From: Symbiodinium sp. CCMP2592
Lineage: Eukaryota > Sar > Dinophyceae > Suessiales > Symbiodiniaceae
Direction: 5' to 3'
Length of the DNA: 64,000 bases
Assembly (NCBI GenBank): GCA_905221615.1
Contig: CAJNDT010002802.1
Span: 75,001 to 139,000 of the forward strand
The position numbers and the translations under genes were made by a program. This document shows, piece after piece, positions 2,994 to 38,989 of the stretch. The notes beneath the pieces were generated by a model. It made no database searches. It was not told where the DNA came from and saw only the letters and a program-made list of their open reading frames with translations. Position 1 is the stretch's first letter; the number at the start of each line of letters is the position of its first letter.

Positions 2994-3104
2994 TATACGG
3001 GAGCTTCCGAAAATAAGGGGTACCTTACTTGGGGGTCCTTATAATAAGGATCCTACTATTTAGGGTCCTATATTAGGGTCCCCTATTTTCGGAAACTCCC
3101 ATAC
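2994..3104. mobile_element. Family A inverted-repeat element
   Basis: Left end CGGGAGCTTCCGAAAATA, right end TATTTTCGGAAACTCCC, with the family core between (GGTACCTTA, GGGGGTCCTTATAATAAGG, ATCCTACTATTTAGGG). ATAC abuts both ends and is a possible short target duplication. Confidence 0.8.
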
Positions 3105-3266: not shown

Positions 3267-3383
3267 TGTAAACCTTAGAAGCTGCCCCCACGCTGTAATA
3301 GTGACTACAAGGATTATATAACGGCCCGATTATATTCCTATTATACCACTATTACAGGGTGGGGGCCCTTTCTAATGTAAATC
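3267..3383. mobile_element. Family G inverted-repeat element (3275-3375)
   Basis: The 101-bp element starts TTAGAAGCTGCCCCCACG and ends GGGTGGGGGCCCTTTCTAA. Its inner arms read CTGTAATAGTG and CACTATTACAG. It is flanked by the near-identical 8-mers TGTAAACC (3267-3274) and TGTAAATC (3376-3383). A second copy is nested in a family A element at 63287-63397. Confidence 0.75.
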
Positions 3384-13961: not shown

Positions 13962-14081
13962 CTTGGAGGATCATGGGACTTAGTAAGTACGGTTATAAGT
14001 ACCTTAATTGGGGTTAGAAGTAGATATAACTATAGTTACCTTACTTATGACCCTAGTTACTAAGTCCCATGATCCTTTAAG
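13962..14081. mobile_element. Family D inverted-repeat element
   Basis: Left arm CTTGGAGGATCATGGGACTT, right arm AAGTCCCATGATCCTTTAAG. Inner repeats of GGGTTATAAGTA flank a TATAACTATAGTTACC centre. About 120 bp. Other copies: 18579, 31997, 32532 (worn), 38362, 50291, 50858, 51290 and 62301. Confidence 0.85.
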
Positions 14082-14454
14082 TGGGCACTGGGCGTCATGT
14101 AGCGAGTCATGGTAAGCTTCGGGCGGTCCTACTTGTAATTGATAACACACCTGATGCTTCAGTCGCACATCTCAACACCAAAACGGCTGAACCGCTCGGG
14201 ATCGAGACCTCCAGTGGAGAATCAAGGGAATAAAGCTCTTCTTCTGTCGAGATCTCGCACAGCCTATGTCAAAAGCAGTAGAGGTTGAGGGGCTTGAGCT
14301 TGACTTTAAAACCTAACCGAAAAACCCTAAACTATCCACCTCAGCGGCTGTAACCCTTCCACCTTACGTGTCCATGCTAGACTCCTTGCCTCCTCGAGCC
14401 AGGAATCCGAACTCTTGACTCTACAGCTCCTAAAACCCAGGGCCGTAATTAGTA

Positions 14455-18802: not shown

Positions 18803-18919
18803 GGTGACTAAACTGAACTTAGAACCCTAGCAAAATTATGATTTTAGCTGTTTCTCAGGGATTATAATAAACAGAAAAATTGAAAATGATTTAAGGATTT
18901 CTAAGTACCCCTAAGGTGA
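18803..18919. mobile_element. Family H introner-like element (18808-18914) with 5-bp target duplication
   Basis: The 107-bp element starts CTAAACTGAACTTAGAACCC and ends CTAAGTACCCCTAA. It is flanked by GGTGA at 18803-18807 and 18915-18919. On the plus strand, 18804-18915 would be a 112-nt intron that starts GT and ends AG, followed by G. The homologous element at 36143-36243 sits in a gene. No host gene was identified here. Confidence 0.7.
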
Positions 18920-22844: not shown

Positions 22845-25800
22845 CTAGCAGGCAGGCTCGTCAATCAGTTCGATCGGGCCCGCGTCAGACTCCACGTCTG
22901 CTCGAGCCGGGACGAGTAGCGCAAGGTACACTCGCCGCTGCAGATCCAGCGTGAACTCAACCCGCACCGAAGCAGAGCTATCATCAGCATGCCACCAGCT
23001 GGAGTCCATTCTGAGCACCGCGCGATAGTGACCACAGTCCAGGGTTTCACCCTGATGTTCGATCAGAGCCGCGACCTGGAAGTCATGCCACCGTACGGCT
23101 ACTCCTTCGGTGAACACCGGCACTTGTACACAGTCCGAGGGAGCAACCGGCGTATGCACTTTATGACCATCACCACACCGCTCAATTTGAAGAATCAGCA
23201 AGCTGGGAACCTCAATCAAGGCATGGCGAAACTCCTGTGCAAACCACTGGCTGATGAGATCCTGTAGGGGACTTGCCACAAGACCAATGGGGATCGCAAT
23301 GGGATGAACGCCACGCTGAGGAGTTCGAACTTGGTCGAAACGCTGATATCGGGCTTCCCACCGAGCCAAGCTGAATCCCAATCCGCGAAGAAGAACTGAG
23401 GCAAACTCAGAAGCATCGTGTTGCCTGCCATCAAAGGACCACCTTCTCAGAACGGAGCGAACTATGAGTTGTCCACTAAGAGCCAGCGCTTGATTGCGAG
23501 AGACCGCCTGCTCCGCCAGCCGATAGAAGCCCTGAATGGCATTTCCCAGCCCGTCGGCACCCTGCATGGCAAAGAGCAAAGCGTGAATCACAGCATTCAT
23601 GAAGCAGAGGTTGCCACCGTTGCTTAGCCGAAGCCTAAGCAGCCAGCCGGACTCCAGGACCGGAGAGGGGCCCACCACGACTCCAGATGGCACCTGCAAT
23701 GTAGAAGTGGCTACCGCAACTTTCGGTGGCCGCATAGTCGATGCCGAGGAAGAGGCAGCCTTGAGACCCGGACCAAAAGCCCGACCGATCGGGGTGGAGC
23801 CAACCTCGAACAACTGATACTGCGGAGTGCTCTGCCATTGTTTTGCTGCGGGGCCTTTGATGGAAATCGAGTCGACCATCCCCAGACCACGGAGCTGCCG
23901 CACTGCCAGAAGCTGGAACAAAGCAGAGCATTTGCCACTATGATCCAATTCATTTTTGGCCCGACTACCACAGAATCGACACGGCACAACAAAGACCGCA
24001 GACAGACTTCGAGCCTCCGCCGTTGCCACCACTTTCACTTTCCTGTACTGCTCAGGATGAGACTGCCGCCAATGTGCCTTGATTTTTCCCGCCTCCTTGA
24101 CCCACTGTCGGCAAAGTGCACAGCGAGTAGCCAACACACGAAGTCGAGAGCCTCCGGCGCCAAGCTGTGCGGGGGCAACCCTGAGAGCATCCGCAATCTG
24201 GCATGTGACCGTCTCCTGCCCTTGAGCGCCAGCTGGTGGTACAGGAGGAGAGACGATTTCCTCCTCGCGAATGCGCTCCAGCATTTGGTCTTCTGTCAAA
24301 CCCTCAGCCAAGAAGGACTTCACCCTAAAGCAAGTGCCTGTTGTGATGTGACGCTCCAGCGATCGCCAATCAAAAAGCCGACCCTGACAAAATCGACAAA
24401 ATGGCAATCCAAATAGGGAGTGAACATCTTTGCGAAAAGATAATTTGGCCTGAGTGTTGATCTCGGGATGCCGGTGCATGATATGCATCTGCACGCTGGC
24501 TTCAGAGTCAAAGTACACCCCACACACCGGGCACGCACTGCTCAGGGCCACGACCAATGGCTCCAAGGAAGAGCCCACCCCCACCAGGGGCACCTCCAGA
24601 ACACGATCCAATTGGTCCAATACCTCAACGGCACGTGCTAACTCTGGGGCCTTGAGCTCAGCACTGCGACCACAATCGGCACGAATGGAGTCCACCTTCC
24701 GAGCAAGCTGATCACGAAGCGCCACCGCTGGAGTAAACTCAGCTCGAGTCAGCACCTGCACATTGCTCACCCCCTCCTCGTAGATGCGAAGAATCTTCCG
24801 GTAGTGACCTGCCAGGACGGAGACGCACCCCTTATAGACAGGCATCGTCACGCCCACAAAGACCAAGGAGTATGCAAGACACGGCCACACTGTTGCCTGA
24901 TAAAGGCGAGCACGCTGACGCTGCGTGAGCGCTCCGCGCGTGCGCAGAACCCGACCAAGCTCCTGGAATCTCTGCTGCGCGACCTGTGCTCGAGCAGCGA
25001 AAGTCTGTTGCTCAAAGCTATCGTAGGACAGCACCGCGCCCAAGTATGGCATAGTGGCTGCTGTAGGAATCCAGTAATCCTGAGAACCAGACCTAATGCG
25101 CACATGCTGACCTCCGTCACGCCATACCAAAATGGACCGGCATGCCCTGGCAACCGCACTACCACGAAGCCTCAACACAATCAAGCTCTTCTGGAAGTTG
25201 ATCGACATGCCTAGCGATCCCAGAGTGTCGATCAGCAGCCTGATCTCGTCCAGCGCCAATCGAAAGCCTGCAACATCTCGCAAAAGCCAGTGTGCATGAA
25301 GATCATCCGCGAAAAGACTGTAGCGATCATCACGCAGCCGCCGGCCTTTTTCCCGGAGAGCCTCGCCAAGCCTTCTATGCATTCTCGCAGTCCAGGCAGC
25401 AAAAATAATGGGGGCAATGGGACACCCCTGCCTCAGCCCTCGAGTCATGCGTACTGCCTCCGAGGCCCCACCATGCTGAACAAAGCACCTGGTTTGGGCA
25501 TGCACACCAACCAGAAGGACAGCGATGGCCTCGCCGACACCCGCCTCGAGCAAGCTAGCCAAGATCTCCGAGTGGGGCACCGCGTCAAAGGCCTTCCGCA
25601 AATCCAAGCTTATCATAAGCCCTCCAATTAAAGGCTCAGTCGCTTCACCAAGTAGTTTGGAAGTGTGGTCATGCTGATGCTGTTTAAGCAAGGTACGAAC
25701 AGCACTGCAATGGAGTGTAGCACGAAGAAGCGGGTCAGCAGTAGAGGTACCCGGGCGATAAGCATATTGAGGCGTGGACCGCATACTGGAAAGTATGACC

Positions 25801-27905
25801 GAAGAGATCTCGTTCCGCAGGACAATGAGAAAAGCCTTCGCGTCCACGGGCATTAAGCCGATACTTCGCAGGTTCTCCGGACTACTAGGGGTTTTGCCGG
25901 CCTTGGCCAGCCACGCTAGCTGCACCCATGACCAATCTGATGGAATGTGCGGCTGATCACCACACAGTGAAGCCTGTGCAATCTCTGACAACCGGTGGGC
26001 CGCCTCTGCACAACCATTCTTCCAGGCCTGCACCTGGGGCTCTCCATTAGGCACCGCCTTGCCGGATCGCATAGAAAGGAGTGCAGCTTGCCAAGCTTCC
26101 GGTCTGAAGATCTGTGGTGCAATTGGCTGCAACTGGACCGAACATATGTGCTCTGGACTCCGAGCCTTGAATAACTCCGCGGCATATACCGCTAGCATCT
26201 TGCACTCCGCCCTGGGATGCATGACGTTTCCATCCGCATCACGCAGCCGAATAGAGCGTCTAGCTTTGCGAGGAGACAACCACCGAACACACTGAAAAAG
26301 CCCCTTACTATCCCCCTTTCTCGCAGCGGACTCTGCAAGTTCAAGAATGTCAAGGAGCTGCTGCCGCCTTCGAGCGCGCGCCAGAGCGCGAAGCTCCCGA
26401 TGCCTTCGTCGGAGCTGAAGAAAGAGCCGAAGTCTGTGAAAGGCATCCCTCATGGTGCGGACGCGCTGTGCCGCTAGCTGTTTCCTAGCCTCCCAGAAGT
26501 GAACAATTTCACCATCAAGCCCTCGTAGACCCGGCTTCTGAACTGAAGGTACTGATACTGGATTCTGGGCTTGAATGTCGCGCCTCAAATCAGCGATGGC
26601 AGGCAACTCCCTGTGCAAGGGTTCACTGCAGCCACGAGCCCCACGACTCAACCGCCATGGAGTCCACCGCAGAGGAATCATTGCCTGTAGGAGCAGGTGA
26701 CCAGATGATCTCCAGCCCGCAATCGGAGCAACTTTGGGCACACAACGCTTGGCAGCCGAGTCAGCAAGAACTGACCGAACCAAAATGAAATCAATCTGCG
26801 ATTTGCCCTTACTGTGGAAAAAGGTATGGCTCTGGGATTTGCGGCCCCAAGTGTTAAGGGCACATAACTGATGCTTCTGAAGTAACCCCGTGAGCCACTT
26901 ACGCTCAGAAACAACTTCAGCAGTTTGATTGTGCGGCAGCACACCACCACCCGTACACGGTGGAGACTTCTCCAGACCAGAATTCAGATCTCCCGCAACA
27001 ATGATAGAGGATCGCGTAGGCAAGGAGCGCAATGCCGTGTCCAGTTTATCCCACAGACCCCAACGCAACTGAAGAACCCTTGCAAGCTCAGCAGAACCAA
27101 AGGGAAGAGTATGCTGATACACGCCCAAGATGTCGAGATGTTGCCCTTGCGCAAAACACCGCGCCTGAAGAAGCCGCCCCGGAACCAACTCTTGCCATCG
27201 CAGTGTGTCCCGCGAGCAGAAGTCCTCCCTGATCCCGAGCATAACGCCACCAGAGCGAGGTTTGGCACACGGGCTGCCCACAAACGTCCAACCGTCTTCG
27301 CTCCACTCTTGAAGATTCGATCGATGCGTTTCTTGGAGAAGCAGAATATGAACTTCCGGATGCTGTCTGAGATATAGCTTGATCTCTGCGAATAAGAGCT
27401 CCGACAGACCCCCACAGTTCCATGACAATACTCCGACTCTCTGCTTCAGGGTTTCCCTAGTTGGCCGCATACCTGCTCCAGACGACAAGGAGGCGCTAAA
27501 CAGCTGCTTTCCTTTGTAGTTCGAGGTGCCCTGGCGCTCCGCTCGGGCAATGGCACGCTTCAATGACCTCTTCTTGATTCTCGATGAATGAATGTCAACC
27601 ACATTGATAGAGCCGGCCTTAAATCCCCTCTCGTTTGCCACCGAGGCCGAGGCCAAGGTAGCTCCAGACACCCCAAGGGGAGGCATGTCAACCCTCGCGC
27701 CGAGAGACACATCTTCACCTTGACTGCCCACACATCGGGTCTCTCCCCGGAGTTGGGACCGGGACGAGCGCGCACCGCCAAGAAGCTTGTTCTTCGGCCG
27801 TACATGCGCATGCTCCACGTGGGTGGCACTGCGTTGCGTAAACTCATCATGCTCCACTGCAGGACACGTTCCAAGACCCTGGAAAATCTGTATCTGAACA
27901 CCCAT
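22845..27905 (-). CDS. LINE polyprotein: APE endonuclease, reverse transcriptase, zinc fingers, C-terminal USP-like protease
   Basis: 1686 residues from the first ATG at 27905 (the frame is open about 30 codons further upstream). Endonuclease at about 155-415: S-W-N-C-G-G with N163, Q-E-T with E192, G-D-L-N with D306/N308, I-D-F with D372, and S-G-H (401-403) where S-D-H is usual. Reverse transcriptase at about 670-1030: L-D-L-R-K-A-F-D (D768), R-Q-G-C-P-I-A-P, and F-A-D-D at 865-868, so the catalytic aspartates are intact. Four CC-H-H/C fingers follow: C1125/C1128/H1141/H1146, C1170/C1173/H1186/C1192, C1262/C1265/H1278/H1283 and C1309/C1312/H1322/C1326. Residues about 1420-1665 resemble a ubiquitin-specific protease: G-G-N-L-C-F-M-N (C1434), R-Q-H-D-A-S-E-F, G-H-Y (H1626) and W-W-H-A-D-D (D1641). 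Cleavage of cellular ubiquitin or self-processing is inference. Confidence 0.9.
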   Translation of the reverse strand: MGVQIQIFQGLGTCPAVEHDEFTQRSATHVEHAHVRPKNKLLGGARSSRSQLRGETRCVGSQGEDVSLGARVDMPPLGVSGATLASASVANERGFKAGSINVVDIHSSRIKKRSLKRAIARAERQGTSNYKGKQLFSASLSSGAGMRPTRETLKQRVGVLSWNCGGLSELLFAEIKLYLRQHPEVHILLLQETHRSNLQEWSEDGWTFVGSPCAKPRSGGVMLGIREDFCSRDTLRWQELVPGRLLQARCFAQGQHLDILGVYQHTLPFGSAELARVLQLRWGLWDKLDTALRSLPTRSSIIVAGDLNSGLEKSPPCTGGGVLPHNQTAEVVSERKWLTGLLQKHQLCALNTWGRKSQSHTFFHSKGKSQIDFILVRSVLADSAAKRCVPKVAPIAGWRSSGHLLLQAMIPLRWTPWRLSRGARGCSEPLHRELPAIADLRRDIQAQNPVSVPSVQKPGLRGLDGEIVHFWEARKQLAAQRVRTMRDAFHRLRLFLQLRRRHRELRALARARRRQQLLDILELAESAARKGDSKGLFQCVRWLSPRKARRSIRLRDADGNVMHPRAECKMLAVYAAELFKARSPEHICSVQLQPIAPQIFRPEAWQAALLSMRSGKAVPNGEPQVQAWKNGCAEAAHRLSEIAQASLCGDQPHIPSDWSWVQLAWLAKAGKTPSSPENLRSIGLMPVDAKAFLIVLRNEISSVILSSMRSTPQYAYRPGTSTADPLLRATLHCSAVRTLLKQHQHDHTSKLLGEATEPLIGGLMISLDLRKAFDAVPHSEILASLLEAGVGEAIAVLLVGVHAQTRCFVQHGGASEAVRMTRGLRQGCPIAPIIFAAWTARMHRRLGEALREKGRRLRDDRYSLFADDLHAHWLLRDVAGFRLALDEIRLLIDTLGSLGMSINFQKSLIVLRLRGSAVARACRSILVWRDGGQHVRIRSGSQDYWIPTAATMPYLGAVLSYDSFEQQTFAARAQVAQQRFQELGRVLRTRGALTQRQRARLYQATVWPCLAYSLVFVGVTMPVYKGCVSVLAGHYRKILRIYEEGVSNVQVLTRAEFTPAVALRDQLARKVDSIRADCGRSAELKAPELARAVEVLDQLDRVLEVPLVGVGSSLEPLVVALSSACPVCGVYFDSEASVQMHIMHRHPEINTQAKLSFRKDVHSLFGLPFCRFCQGRLFDWRSLERHITTGTCFRVKSFLAEGLTEDQMLERIREEEIVSPPVPPAGAQGQETVTCQIADALRVAPAQLGAGGSRLRVLATRCALCRQWVKEAGKIKAHWRQSHPEQYRKVKVVATAEARSLSAVFVVPCRFCGSRAKNELDHSGKCSALFQLLAVRQLRGLGMVDSISIKGPAAKQWQSTPQYQLFEVGSTPIGRAFGPGLKAASSSASTMRPPKVAVATSTLQVPSGVVVGPSPVLESGWLLRLRLSNGGNLCFMNAVIHALLFAMQGADGLGNAIQGFYRLAEQAVSRNQALALSGQLIVRSVLRRWSFDGRQHDASEFASVLLRGLGFSLARWEARYQRFDQVRTPQRGVHPIAIPIGLVASPLQDLISQWFAQEFRHALIEVPSLLILQIERCGDGHKVHTPVAPSDCVQVPVFTEGVAVRWHDFQVAALIEHQGETLDCGHYRAVLRMDSSWWHADDSSASVRVEFTLDLQRRVYLALLVPARADVESDAGPIELIDEPAC

Positions 27906-28170
27906 CCGAAGAAAACGATTGGACCAAGTCTGGCCGATTCCTGACGCAGTAAGCTCGAAAGGCAAGCTCACAGTCGCGCGGAAAGAGTTCTGCAACGTCC
28001 AGCACTATATCAGCTTCGCTAGCCGAGCACCAGAATGAATGCAAAAGTGCCAGCACGTAATGTCGACTCGGATGATGAAGAGAGTCCCAGAAATGAGTTT
28101 CCAGAAGGATGTCTATAGCTGCTGCTTTAAGACGCCAGCAACAGGAAGAGGTGCAGCAGTGAACTTCCAT
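27847..28170 (-). CDS. Short ORF overlapping the start of the LINE polyprotein
   Basis: 107 codons from an ATG at 28170, ending 59 nt inside the polyprotein in another frame. The sequence is helical and acidic in part (D-I-V-L-D-V-A-E-L-F-P-R-D). A +1 shift in the overlap would join it to the polyprotein, because the polyprotein frame is already open there. It could also be a leader ORF or chance. Confidence 0.3.
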   Translation of the reverse strand: MEVHCCTSSCCWRLKAAAIDILLETHFWDSLHHPSRHYVLALLHSFWCSASEADIVLDVAELFPRDCELAFRAYCVRNRPDLVQSFSSDGCSDTDFPGSWNVSCSGA

Positions 28171-29062: not shown

Positions 29063-29169
29063 TAATGTAGGAACCTGATTAAGAAACCCTGAGCCTATAA
29101 CCCCAAAATGGTAGGATTCATTTAAGGAGCCCTCATAAAGGCCCAAGGTTTCTTTATCAGGTTCCTACA
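29063..29169. mobile_element. Family F inverted-repeat element
   Basis: Left arm AATGTAGGAACCTGATTAAG, right arm TTTCTTTATCAGGTTCCTAC. The centre contains GCCTATAACCCCAAAATGG. Second copy at 32760-32869. Confidence 0.8.
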
Positions 29170-32869: not shown

Positions 32870-34076
32870 AACCATGAAGCGCCTAAACATACCTCCCAGC
32901 CAAGCTCAAGGCATTCTGCGAAGCTTGGCATACCGACACCCATGGCTGTCTTAACCCGGAGTCTAGTTCAGGGTTGAGGGAAGTTGGATACTAAGAGTAT
33001 CCTGGTTTAGGGCTTTGGCTTTAGGGTTTAGTGGGTAAGGTTGCCGGCGCTGGGGCGTCGGCTCGTTGCTGCACGGACATGGGGTGCGGGTCGTTGAAGG
33101 CTTCGGGTTGAGGGTTTGGGACTCAGGTTTTACGGTTTGATTTTTCGGGTTTGGGTTTAGGGCTTGGACATGAGGCTGCAGTTTGAAGTAGAATAGGACA
33201 TGGAAAGAAGGCCTGCGGAGAGAAATGTTACCAAAGAGCCACTGTTTCGGATGCGAAGAGCGCAAACATGTACACATGGTACTCCCACTCCCTCCCACGC
33301 CCCCACTGCGAGGCTGTGGCCATGGAGGGCGGCAGGGATGTTATACCATCGGGGGGAGGAGGAGCTTGGCAACACTGCAACAGGCAAACATACATACAGA
33401 CCGCAAGATAGACAGACAGACGGGCAGACATAGTTACATACTTACATGCATGCAGGCGTACATGCTTTCATAAATACATACATGAATACGTATGCATGCA
33501 GGTACTTCTCTAGCAATATGCATGTATGACACCAAATGCTTTCCATAATCCCCTCCTAACCGGGTTGTGTAGAAGGGCTCGCGGTCGTTGGGGCTGCTGC
33601 TTGCTCACCACAAGGGTCGTGCGACCAACCAAGATTACAAGGCAACGACACCAAGCTGTCGTTAGGCCACCGACTTTTGCAAATGGATGGAAGCATGCTT
33701 GTGCAGACTGCGTTTGCTGCGGGCCAGGTAGATTTGCACTCTACAGCTGCTTGTCCTGTGAAGCGTTTCCGCCTGAGGGTTCAAGAGTCCATTTTGTTTA
33801 GTTTCTCTTCTGGATTGAGGGCTCAGCGTTTAGGGTCCAGCAAGTTAGGACAGATCGCATGGACGGCAGATCCTCCATCGCCTCACTACATTGAATCCTG
33901 AGGCTGCACATCGACCTAAACCCTTAACCCTGAACCCCTAAACCCTAAACCCTAAGCCTATAACCCAAGTCGCCGCACAACGATCTTTGCTCTCTCTCTG
34001 AGGATGCGCGATCGATGACTTACCCTGCCTAGCCAGCCTCTGGATGGATGGACCAGGGAATTTCGATGGCAGCAAT
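32870..34076. other. No gene supported
   Basis: G-rich telomere-like variants at about 33000-33170, a (CATA)-like microsatellite at 33385-33515 and CCCTAAA units at 33915-33960. Several open frames of 65-110 codons overlap on both strands; none has a recognisable motif. Confidence 0.5.
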
Positions 34077-34175
34077 AAAGGGGCCTTAATAATCAGAAGG
34101 GGGTTTGGAGGCCATTATACTATAAGTGTAGTACGGAAGCCACAAAATAGTATAGGTAACTATTAAGGCCCCTTT
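34077..34175. mobile_element. Family E inverted-repeat element
   Basis: TAAAGGGGCCTTAATAATCA at the left, CTATTAAGGCCCCTTTA at the right. The inner GGTTTGGAGGCCATTATACT and CACAAAATAGTATAGG complete the palindromic layout. Confidence 0.85.
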
Positions 34176-34782
34176 ATGTTAAAACGAGAACAACATAATC
34201 TAAACAGGGGAGTAGGCGCAACAACACAGGTTACGATGGATAGGACTACTGACATTGCGACGACCATGATCATGAACAGAACGTCGCTCGGACGTTGTCT
34301 GAGTGTGCGTGGTAACACCCAGTTCTCCTTTCTAGGGAGCTCACTTGACCGCTTCGGAGTTGATCCTGGCCGCCTAAACCCTAAGCTCTAAAACCTAAGT
34401 CGTCCTGGTGGCACCTCATTCAAGGACCACGGGTTATGCGCCAAGCCTTTCGGTAAAACAACGGAACTTTTATGATCAGAATCAGGTCTTGGTGACTAGA
34501 AGACTACAGTTAAAATATTTTGGACTATAAGACTATAATGTGGACAATCGTTCCATATGTTTCCCCTAAAATTACACGGTCATCCGGATCTCGCAAATGT
34601 CGTCAACCCTCGGTGAAGACTTTTGGCTTGAGAAAATAAAGCCCGCGAGCGGTAGGTTGGCCTTGCAGGTCAGGTTGGGGTTCCGGCTGATGGTTAATAG
34701 TGGGATTTACGTCGTTGAAGATGGCGAGTTCTTATGATGTCAGCTTACTAGGTTCAAGGCTACTGAAAGGTCGGTGTCGTGC
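34176..34782. other. 3' flank of the membrane-protein gene; no gene seen
   Basis: A short CCTAAACCCTAAGC patch lies near 34370. No polyadenylation signal is obvious. Confidence 0.5.
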
Positions 34783-36788
34783 TCAAGCGATTCGCCACAG
34801 GATAGCTGCGACAGTCCACCATGAAAACATCGAGATCAGAGTCAGGAGAAGTTCCCGCTCGGGTTGACGGAAGACGTAGATCTGGATCGTGTAGCAAGCG
34901 ATGTAAACCAAGAGGTTCACGACAACGATGGCATTCGATAGCAAGAAGTCCGAGTACTGCCCACGACATCGTGCTCGCCAGCGGTAACACAATCTGAAGC
35001 AGAGTTTGTCTAGCAGAGGAAAGATCGCAAGCAAGTAGGTGAACGTCTGGGCCAGATCGGCTATCTGTCCGCTGGGATCACTAGGCCGGTTAGCTGCATA
35101 CTCAAGACGAATCCAGACATACGGAGTTGAAAGAAGCACGATGCGTTGATAGGAGATAGCTTTGTATGCAAGCTGATCAATGATGGCCATCCGCACTTCG
35201 GATTGAACTTGCGACTCAAAGTTGTCCAGTGAGCTGTACCATGCAGTGATGCATTCAAGAATGACTTCGCGGTCGCATAGCGACTTGTCTTCATGGCCCT
35301 GATCGCAGCAAGCGCTTCTCGCATGCTCTACTTTGAACTCCCGGAGCTGCTCTTGAAGCGTCTCCACGCTGCGGGCATAGCCTCGAAGAGCGTGTGTCAC
35401 GAAGCTGAAAAGCGGGCCAAGAACAGCAAGGAGCAACAGAGATTCTTCTCCCACCAAAACTGGCTCTTCCGAAGAGGCCAAGGAGGATTCAATGTATCCG
35501 TATGCCAGGGCTGTTACGCAGAGCAGCATCTCGCAGCCCAGCAGCACTGGCCCCAACAAGGGAGGAATAATCTCTAGATCTGCCTTGCAACCGGGACCGC
35601 GGCTGTGCAGAAAAGCGGCGATTTCGAAGATGCACCACCTTGGTTCTCCAGGACACGAAGGTCTGGTGTACGAAACAGAAATCTCTTTCGGCACAACATC
35701 ACTCCTGCTAGCGAGACTTTGCAGAATCCAAGTCGCAGTCTTGTCACCCACGATGGATCCCAGAGAACCAGCATGGAAGCCGACTGCTTCAAAAATGCAC
35801 CCATGCTCAGAATGGCCTCTCCCTTTCTGTCTTGGTCAGCTTGAGGAATGCATGCGATGTCTATAAACACCAGCTTCCGTGGACGCCAGAGCAGCAGGAC
35901 GATGCAAAAGGCAACAAGCCCGGAGAACAGGCACCTGGACTTCGAAGTAACCAGGGAAAAAATGCATAGACTTTTATTTCATAATGGGTTTAGGGTTTAG
36001 GGTGGTTCCTTTAAGGAACAGGTACCCAAAAAAGGTATTCAAGTATGCTACTCCAAAGCCAGGGCACCATCTCCCAACCAGAAGTCCGGCCGAGACGAGG
36101 CCGCAGACTACACTCGCACTCAAGGATCCCGCAACGGTTGCCTATACTGAACTTAGAACCCCTAGCAAAAATTGTAATTTTAGCTGTTCCTTAGGGATTA
36201 TAATAACCAAAAATTCAAAATTATTTCTTCTAAGTGCCCCTAAGTTGCCGGCACGCAATTATGGAGGTAAAGTATGTTGATGTACTTGGACCACCGGCCC
36301 CCCCGCCAGCTGTGTGACCAAAACTGGTCAAAGTGCGGTGTCTGCTGGCTGAGCGAGTGCAAAGTGTCGAAGTCACCTCCTAGTAGCCAGGTCGACGGCA
36401 AGTACCGCAGCAGCTTCCCAACTCGAACACCCCGCAGTATCTCTGGCCGTGTCGCCTCCATTTGGTTGATAAATGCAATGTAGAAGGGTGCCAGCTGTTG
36501 GCCTCCGTCGTTTACATCTTCGTTTGAAGCATTTGCACATTCGCAGGGGATTGGGTCCTGGAAGTCGCACGCTACCTCGGAAGTGGCGGTTGGCCTGCCT
36601 AGCACTGTCTCCGAGCTCGGCGACATGGCTCGGCCAGTCTCAGCTGGGTGAGAGATTCGATGCCTACATTTCAGCGAGTTACCCTCGCAACGTGACGAGG
36701 CCCCTGAGGGAAGTGTGTGACCTCTGAATTCGTACCGCGTGGTCTTTGAAGGACTTTTGAGTTTTTGGGAGGTTAGGGTTTGGGACAT
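34783..36788 (-). CDS. Multi-pass membrane protein with SHSW motif, four exons
   Basis: Joining 36788-36249, 36141-36026, 35934-35737 and 35638-34783 gives 570 codons with no stop until the end. The N-terminal 140 residues are low-complexity. Residues about 154-170 read F-D-Q-F-W-S-H-S-W-R-G-G-R-W. Hydrophobic segments follow at about 181-203 and 220-235. The motif L-V-F-I-D-I-A-C-I-P-Q-A-D (240-252) comes next, then a G-A-F-L-K-Q-S block and V-L-W-D-P-S-W-V-T-R-L-W-C-I-F-E. Several more membrane helices run to the C-terminus. From memory this matches an expanded dinoflagellate family of unknown function; the SHSW to RLWC-FE part recalls a TIR-like fold (inference). The ATG at 36788 is the first in frame; an ATG at 36626 is an alternative. 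Exon 1 is interrupted by an introner-like element, and a telomere-like tract lies in the second intron. Confidence 0.75.
35639..35736 (-). other. 98-nt GC-AG intron
   Basis: On the minus strand the exon ends ...ACAAGACT, and the intron runs GCGACTTGG to AACCAAG, followed by G. Joining CT to GTGG gives R-L-W-C-I-F-E, which restores the frame between two exons that are one frame apart. The GC donor with AG|G acceptor fits dinoflagellate introns. Confidence 0.8.
35935..36025 (-). other. Probable 91-nt GT-AG intron containing telomere-like repeats
   Basis: The preferred junction has donor GTACCTGTT after a split Gly codon and acceptor GTCCAG|G, giving F-F-G-C-L-F-S-G-L-V-A-F across it. Alternative donors (36051, 36048) and an acceptor at 35940 also keep the frame. 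The intron contains CCTAAACCCTAAACCC on the minus strand (about 35985-36002). Confidence 0.6.
36137..36249. mobile_element. Family H introner-like element (36143-36243) inside the coding sequence, 6-bp target duplication
   Basis: The 101-bp element (plus strand TATACTGAACTTAGAACCCC to TAAGTGCCCCTAA) is flanked by GTTGCC at 36137-36142 and 36244-36249. Read through, it introduces TAG in the minus-strand gene. Spliced as 36248-36142 (107 nt, GCAACTTAG to AGTATAG, then G), codon CCG joins GCA and the protein continues P-A-T-V-A-G-S-L-S-A-S-V-V. The GC donor comes from the duplicated target. The final AG is the element's last A plus the first base of the second target copy. Confidence 0.85.
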
Positions 36789-37304
36789 CGGGGCATCAGC
36801 GACACTGTTCTAGAAGTATCTGTTCCGACATCAGCCTTCATGAGCCCTCTGTCACCGTCCATTGCCTGTGATCTAAGCGGCTGCACGCACCTACACTTGG
36901 AACAACCAGTGGCCTAGGCCTACAGCCAGGGTGGAGGGTGGCAGGTGCAGGTCAGCCAAAACCTCCGATGGCTGAGAAAATCTGCGACGCATTGGCGAGC
37001 GTGGGAGCACAACGGACAAGGTATTTGGTCAAGAGCTGCGAAGATCCGCACCTCAAGCTGTGCACGGCCTCGTTGAACCGCCCTCTTCCCCTCAGACCAC
37101 GTCGTATCCGAGGGCCGTGATGCGGTTGAAGAGCTCCTGCTGGGCTCTCGGAAGTTCCCCAAACCCTAAACCCAAAGCCCTGAACCCAAAGCCCTAAACC
37201 CAAAGCCCTGAACCCAAAGCCCTAAACCCAAATCCGGTCATGGTCGCGCCAAAACCCCCCAAAACGCGCTCAGGATTTGTGAAGAAATATTTTGGGTGTA
37301 GTGC
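36789..37304. other. No gene supported
   Basis: Overlapping open frames of 60-83 codons on both strands at 36920-37203. CAAAGCCCTGAACC/CAAAGCCCTAAACC repeats lie at 37160-37230. Confidence 0.5.
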
Positions 37305-38361: not shown

Positions 38362-38514
38362 ACTTGGAGGATCAGGGGACTTAGTACTGTAAGTACACGT
38401 AGGGTTATAAGTACCTTAAATGGGGTTATAAGTAGATATATATATATATATATAATTTATAGTTACCTTTGTTATAACCCTACTATTACTAACTAAGTCC
38501 CATGATCCTCTTGA
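38362..38514. mobile_element. Family D element with internal (TA)n expansion
   Basis: ACTTGGAGGATCAGGGGACT at the left, AAGTCCCATGATCCTCTTGA at the right. The centre carries an added (TA)n tract at 38436-38453. It abuts the end of the coding-like stretch at 38530-38811. Confidence 0.8.
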
Positions 38515-38529
38515 GGTCCCTATAGTACT

Positions 38530-38811
38530 TGCTGCGTAAAGTCTAAAAGCCTTCGAATTGCCAAGGATTTGTGTGGTTCTTCGGTAGATGCCAGTCAACT
38601 CCACCACAACATCAACCCACTCATCGTCCATCGGATTCTGCACGGGCTCCTCTTCCAGCACAACCTCAACCAAAGACTCATCCTCCCCGGCTTCCAACCA
38701 TATTCCTCCCTTCTCCGTCTTCATATGCCGCAAAAAAGCAGGATGAGACTCGCCTGGAGGGCCCTTTCCAACGAGGTGATTAGGGATATTGTCGGCCACT
38801 GGCACTCTGCC
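38530..38811 (-). CDS. Coding-like fragment of an unrecognised protein
   Basis: The minus strand reads V-P-V-A-D-N-I-P-N-H-L-V-G-K-G-P-P-G-E-S, then an F-L-R-H-M-K-T-E-K-G-G-I-W segment, then acidic E-A-G-E-D-E-S-L-V-E-V-V-L-E-E-E, and ends near R-L-Y-A-A-S just before a family D element. Its composition and lack of repeats suggest a true exon. Upstream, another frame reads K-D-K-G-G-K-G-K, so an exon boundary or frameshift may lie near 38850. The protein family is not recognised. The element may have cut off its 3' end. Confidence 0.35.
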
Positions 38812-38989
38812 TTCGTGGCCCTTTCCGGCGGGCAGCTGCTTTCCCGATGGGCAGGACGACGGCTTTGCCCTTGCCGCCCTTGTCTTTCAGGCCCTGGGCC
38901 TTTGCCACCAAAATCTACATATACGGACGATGCCTGGATGGACTGCGACATTTGCGTGTGAAGCTTATGATAACAGAGTCTAAAACCCT

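Follow-up and report, generated by a model that had tools for sequence, protein, structure and literature searches.

The stretch of DNA analyzed here (the window) comprises 64,000 nucleotides of Symbiodinium sp. CCMP2592, positions 75,001 to 139,000 of contig CAJNDT010002802.1 (assembly GCA_905221615.1). Its minus strand carries a membrane-protein gene, the host gene, with a 103-bp element of a repeat family called family H inside a coding exon. We are confident, on comparison of sequences, that positions 36248-36142 are a recently gained spliceosomal intron (intron 1) that arose from a single insertion of a non-autonomous DNA transposon, that is, an introner. Intron 1 is very probably excised from the message, which would keep the protein intact. 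An earlier interpretation made from the letters of the window (the sequence-only reading) had proposed an introner-like element that creates a GC-AG intron in this exon. The proposal is borne out by an empty site in 10 of the 10 closest paralogs, by a target site duplication (TSD), and by the conserved domains that excision restores in other genes. The coordinates of all features are listed in Table 1.

Reading frame and target site duplication

The open reading frame (ORF) that runs from 36809 meets a TAG at 36242-36240, which are bases 3-5 of the element, and the unspliced protein ends in ...CVPAT. Excising 36248-36142 (GC...AG/G) fuses ...ILYLHNCVPA with TVAGSLSASVV... in frame. Both the stop on read-through and the 107-nt excision that restores the codons are as the sequence-only reading had described them. 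Around the element, 35 pairs of a GT, GC, or GA with an AG leave the frame open. Counted from the donor, only the GC-AG pair has a direct repeat of 5 bases; in the other 34 the repeat is 0-2 bases long.

On the minus strand, the site reads ...GTGCCG/GCAA, then the element CTTAGGGG...CAGTATAG, then GCAACCGTT. We placed the ends of the element with an alignment of 38 copies, made up of the two copies in the window and 36 of 39 copies fetched by BLAST rank (L015, L039, and L040 were excluded); a further 20 copies in which GC follows the element and 40 taken in list order were also fetched. Exact repeats between the flanks span 4 bases in 27 of the 38 copies, 5 bases in none, 6 bases in one (L014), 3 bases in one, and 2 bases in five, compared with a 4-base match in 1.3% of shuffled flank pairs. 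The second, list-order sample has an exact 4-bp TSD in 22 of 40 copies. The four bases that hold the donor vary from copy to copy and recur behind the element. The TSD is thus the 4-bp GCAA rather than the 6-bp GTTGCC repeat proposed from the window alone, which on the minus strand (GGCAAC) consists of the TSD, a chance C identical to the first base of the element, and a chance G identical to its last base. The element accordingly measures 103 bp here (36244-36142) and not 101 bp. With a TSD of 4 bp, both bases of the AG belong to the element. The GC donor does sit in the duplicated target, as had been suggested, but the second target copy contributes nothing to the AG.

The window element is 93% identical to the family consensus when insertions are counted and 97% when they are not. 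The inverted ends of the consensus (CTTAGGGGTACTTAGAA and CTATACTGAACTTAGAA) have CT termini followed by an 8-bp exact block and form imperfect terminal inverted repeats (TIRs); those of the window copy pair at 11 of 17 positions, counted by eye. An introner that had entered by reverse splicing at the RNA level was considered and rejected, as the mobile unit excludes the donor and a TSD is present. The predicted RNA fold of intron 1 is not special (z -0.99), and a hairpin therefore need not be invoked.

The empty site in paralogs

We searched the same genome with the spliced host protein and obtained at least 151 matches (the best 150 of 389 candidates scored). The query of this search and of the searches for relatives below included 14 residues from a wrong boundary of intron 2. 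The ten closest paralogs among the matches listed (L048-L057) share 60-77% amino acid identity with the host protein. In a multiple alignment, the site of intron 1 is uninterrupted in all ten, with one copy of the target, and only the window copy holds the element. The site reads GGCAAGC in seven paralogs, AGCGAGC in L054, AGCAAGC in L055, and TGCAAAC in L056. When the unspliced window DNA was used as a BLAST query, its bases 272-276 and 379-383 landed on the same five paralog bases in 6 of 10 paralogs. This double placement is the signature of a target duplication.

An empty site could also come about if intron 1 were old and had been lost from the paralogs, for instance through reverse-transcribed gene copies, and retroposed genes are indeed known in dinoflagellates from passages in PMC7789003 and PMC8045281. 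Intron 3 of the host gene bears on this point. Its interruption is kept in 7 of the 7 paralogs that can be aligned there, which excludes whole-gene reverse transcription for those seven; L050, L051, and L057 offer no anchor, and the stretch is missing in L057, so that this check does not reach three of the ten. Loss would moreover require repeated exact events, and the element is close to its family consensus, whereas the exons on either side of it are ~20% divergent from the nearest paralogs. We regard an old intron as extremely improbable. Since at least seven paralogs keep intron 3 and are not reverse-transcribed copies, intron 1 is best read as a gain. How introns are gained is a long-debated question, and here the states before and after coexist within one genome.

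A second introner in the host gene

Intron 2 of the host gene starts 74 exon bases downstream of intron 1 and is likewise missing from 10 of the 10 closest paralogs. It is composed of the TSD GTGC and a 129-bp element, CCTGG...CCAG, of a family unrelated to family H. A donor inside GGGTACC had been considered and was dropped when the paralog alignment moved the boundary. The genome holds at least 39 further matches to this family (the best 40, its own included, of 1,369 candidates scored) and 349 exact copies of its 20-nt 3' end. Among 20 fetched copies, 13 have an exact 4-bp TSD, with a null of 0.5%. One gene copy thus has two young introns of two families, ten sister copies have neither, and an older intron is common to the copies that can be aligned. 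This makes the host gene family a clean system for testing how newborn introns are spliced.

Family H across the genome

We searched one genome of 1,098,105,373 bases in 5,383 contigs. The 21-nt spliced leader of dinoflagellates occurs there in 429 exact copies (reversed control, 0), which marks the host as a dinoflagellate. A DNA search with family H returned at least 41 matches (the best 40 of 1,794 first-look candidates scored). The 17-nt 3' end of family H occurs in 3,539 exact copies and its reversed control in none, which is more than chance. The base after these ends is G in 754 (GC in 90) and T in 1,652. Such a whole-assembly search had been recommended in the sequence-only reading, and it found copies that split further genes.

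Similar family H sequence interrupts unrelated genes, and protein matches cross the junction once the element and one TSD copy are removed. Excision from L030 restores the small chain of glutamate synthase, with a gapless alignment to PDB 7mfm chain I at the junction GCPLGN/RIPTWN. Excision from L078 restores TMEM144, and the 92 residues that span the junction align to 92 positions of the profile. A BTB match spans the junction in L011, and an amino-acid-transporter match does so in L092; L023 had no Pfam match after excision. Judged by motifs, L081, L083, and L097 sit in further members of the host gene's family.

These restored proteins bear on whether the window element is simply an unspliced transposon that broke one gene copy, leaving a pseudogene whose protein stops at ...CVPAT. 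The stop is met at once on read-through, and the gene family is large enough for a dead copy to be tolerable. However, the downstream exons stay open for ~370 codons to the stop when the introns are removed, the second introner in the gene also keeps the frame, and the glutamate synthase gene carries family H with frame-perfect ends. We consider a broken gene very unlikely.

We also asked how often the same excision leaves an open frame. Of 60 copies, 50 were kept; L017 duplicates L016 and was left out, as were nine copies in which fewer than 3 of the 4 TSD bases matched. The GC sample covered 20 of the 90 places, 19 of them in list order (two were passed over, one of which had already been fetched) plus C1902 (L097). 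C1902 was chosen for its adjoining gene-family match; hence, one of the 12 long frames in the GC class was not picked blind. Within 300-bp flanks, the restored sense frame has a median of 102 codons for copies with a GC TSD (n = 23), 52 for GT or GA (n = 9), and 56 for others (n = 18). The GC class differs from all other copies (P = 1e-5), with 100 or more codons in 12 of 23 vs 2 of 27. We take the single restored proteins to be stronger support than this statistic.

Three copies, L119 (contig C1), L128 (C2), and L146 (C14), have a TSD that starts with GA, and excision restores frames of 133, 186, and 131 codons, respectively. They are candidates for GA-AG introns, and L128 resembles an ion channel by eye.

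Several observations weigh against the interpretation of intron 1 as a spliced introner with a GC donor. First, 2,785 of the 3,539 copies lack a following G, and under the TSD rule no intron is possible there. The antisense control of the frame test was also weakly positive (P = 0.017), and base composition thus explains part of the frame signal. The list-order sample (40 of the first 43 places, as two had already been fetched and one lies at a contig end; none is followed by GC) has a restored frame with a median of 64 codons in sense vs 60 in antisense and 100 or more codons in 8 of 40 vs 6 of 40. Sense and antisense are thus about equal, which means that most copies lie outside coding exons. 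Finally, splicing and the exact donor are what we infer from the frame, the paralogs, and the other genes, and a GT at 36254, six bases upstream of the GC, can be paired with the same AG. Splicing from there would remove a canonical GT-AG intron of 113 nt and leave the frame open, at the cost of two codons. Those two codons are found in all 10 paralogs, however, and the GC rule is the one that yields the gapless junction in the glutamate synthase copy. GC donors are also ordinary in this group, as an excerpt of the review PMC11453091 puts GC or GA donors at 25-74% of introns in Symbiodiniaceae, and a table in PMC7789003 agrees with this account. Use of the GT seems very unlikely to us.

Taken as an introner insertion, the site suggests the following route. 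A 103-bp element resembling a miniature inverted-repeat transposable element (MITE), with imperfect inverted ends, inserted into TGCCG/GCAA/CCGTT of an uninterrupted exon, the target state that the paralogs display. The insertion duplicated GCAA, and both copies are present. The left copy, which starts with GC, then very probably acts as the 5' splice site and the AG at the element end as the 3' splice site. Splicing would take out the element and one target copy, and with these two removed the protein would be unchanged. Family H appears to repeat this process in several unrelated genes, and the second family appears to do so downstream in the host gene.

Orientation relative to genes

We then compared the strand of the copies with that of neighboring copies and genes. 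These counts use the first-listed places of each search and no random draw, neighboring pairs are not fully independent, and gene orientation was judged from one gene family, that of the host gene. Copies with T behind the element (the first 100 listed) lie a median of 78 kb from their contig neighbors and are on the same strand as these in 52 of 55 pairs, and listed family H copies of all classes do so in 65 of 71. When the nearest gene-family match lies 2-300 kb away, the strand agrees for 10 of 10 T copies and 4 of 4 GC copies; the T-class rows used were the 24 of 100 listed whose contig has a gene match. Only one copy of the BLAST-best set, C2223, has such a match no more than 300 kb away (at 232 kb), and its strand disagrees (0 of 1). 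For the intron 2 family, strand agreement is 25 of 29 within the family and 14 of 14 with the closest family H copy of the T class.

As a control, we used TIR family A of the window, which has 5,602 exact genome copies of a 24-nt stretch. Within family A, strands agree in 47 of 83 cases. Family A has the strand of the nearest gene in 6 of 10 cases (from the 12 of 100 listed rows whose contig has a gene match) and that of the closest H copy in 21 of 33 (from 46 of the 100 rows listed for family A and 40 of those listed for family H). The two introner families, but not the control family, thus follow the orientation of genes even in copies that could not form introns under the TSD rule, and selection for TSD splicing is not the explanation. 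A donor one base upstream was considered for the T-class copies by eye and was unsupported.

We tentatively suggest, with more doubt than conviction, that the copies of family H and of the intron 2 family which enter transcribed DNA, or persist there, are nearly all in the sense orientation of the gene, regardless of whether splicing could remove them. If so, orientation would be set at insertion, through a link to transcription or replication, or by strong purging of antisense copies, and not by rescue through TSD splicing. The gene-sense bias would then precede the creation of introns, and the order of oriented insertion followed by splicing becomes testable. We found no literature title on a gene-sense bias of unspliceable introner copies, a result judged on titles that is not proof of absence.

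MITEs are non-autonomous TIR transposons. Family H is like them in being short and multi-copy, with a TSD and no coding capacity seen. It is unlike them in its strong co-orientation with genes, of which family A shows none.

Comparison with known introners

The introners of Symbiodinium microadriaticum, as drawn in Fig. 2B of PMC9860276 (Gozashti et al. 2022), have a 4-bp TSD and TIRs, bring the 3' splice site with them, and obtain the 5' splice site from the TSD. By sequence, the window intron is like them in its 4-bp TSD, the AG borne by the element, and the donor borne by the TSD. The example in that paper spans 115 positions and comes from the same genus as the host of the 107-nt window intron. 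Unlike the clear TIRs in that figure, the inverted ends of family H are imperfect, and the families are likened here by mechanism. The sequence-only reading could not tell whether the family had been described; the account in PMC9860276 answers this in part, for the mechanism. The mechanism is already published for the genus, and intron 1 adds a clear new example of this known route of intron gain.

Introner-driven introns in dinoflagellates are also credited to Roy et al. (2023, Curr Biol) in the excerpted review PMC11453091, and introner elements in further dinoflagellates are treated in parts of PMC10522408, PMC10666404, and PMC11114475. The introners of the dinoflagellate lineage Amoebophrya, as outlined in PMC7789003 (Farhat et al. 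2021), are similar in having 3-5 nt direct repeats together with inverted repeats at the intron ends. Their splice sites are given there as highly variable and non-canonical, unlike the GC-AG and GT-AG of the window.

Features of the window

Table 1. Host gene, its predicted introns, and family H copies in the window
Feature	Position	Strand	Basis or remarks
Host gene, membrane protein	34783-36809	-	Very large family; motifs FWSHSW, FLDIACI.Q, and WC.FE.AAF by eye
Exon a	36249..36809	-	Open from 36809; ORF and paralog alignment
Intron 1, probably introner-derived, 107 nt, GC-AG	36142..36248	-	Frame restored on excision; absent from 10/10 closest paralogs
TSD copy 1 (GCAA), putative source of the GC 5' splice site	36245..36248	-	Sequence and copy alignment
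Family H element proper, 103 bp, CTTAGGGG...CAGTATAG	36142..36244	-	Ends from alignment of 38 copies
TSD copy 2 (GCAA), opens the next exon	36138..36141	-	Sequence and copy alignment
Exon b (TVAGSLSASVVCGLVSAGLLVGR..)	36068..36141	-	Paralog alignment
Intron 2, 133 nt, GT-AG; TSD GTGC plus 129-bp element	35935..36067	-	Absent from 10/10 closest paralogs
Exon c (..CLFSGLVAFCIVLLLWRPRKLVFIDIACIPQ..VTR)	35737..35934	-	ORF and paralog alignment
Intron 3, 98 nt, GC-AG, older	35639..35736	-	Interruption at the same place in 7/7 alignable paralogs
Exon d to stop (WCIFEIAAFL.. to ..AAILWRIA, stop)	34783..35638	-	ORF
Second family H copy, TSD TCAC (no G donor possible)	18808..18915	-	No ORF of 110 or more codons covers the copy

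Pfam gave no match for the three host-gene frames scanned. A search for relatives of the host protein in viral contigs found no stretch that fits the pattern, and in a collection of genome contigs there were 26 pattern matches, none of which is a relative by tblastn. Scans of the whole window with Rfam (at gathering scores) and for tRNAs returned nothing.

The window holds other mobile-like DNA. On the minus strand, 22848-28004 is an open frame of 1,719 amino acids with endonuclease (Exo_endo_phos), reverse transcriptase (RVT_1), and ubiquitin C-terminal hydrolase (UCH) domains, the last at residues 1460-1679. It seems to be a retrotransposon resembling a long interspersed nuclear element and carrying a deubiquitinase-like domain. 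A family B element at 38363-38509 (plus strand) overlaps the end of a minus-strand ORF (38419-38886) and might be a further introner-type intron. Other elements of ~100 bp with inverted ends belong to six or seven further families, with examples at 2999-3103, 13962-14085, 320-410, 3273-3379, 34074-34177, and 29064-29169. Three of the ~100-bp inverted-end elements were folded and form strong hairpins, with z scores of -3.8, -6.4, and -9.9.
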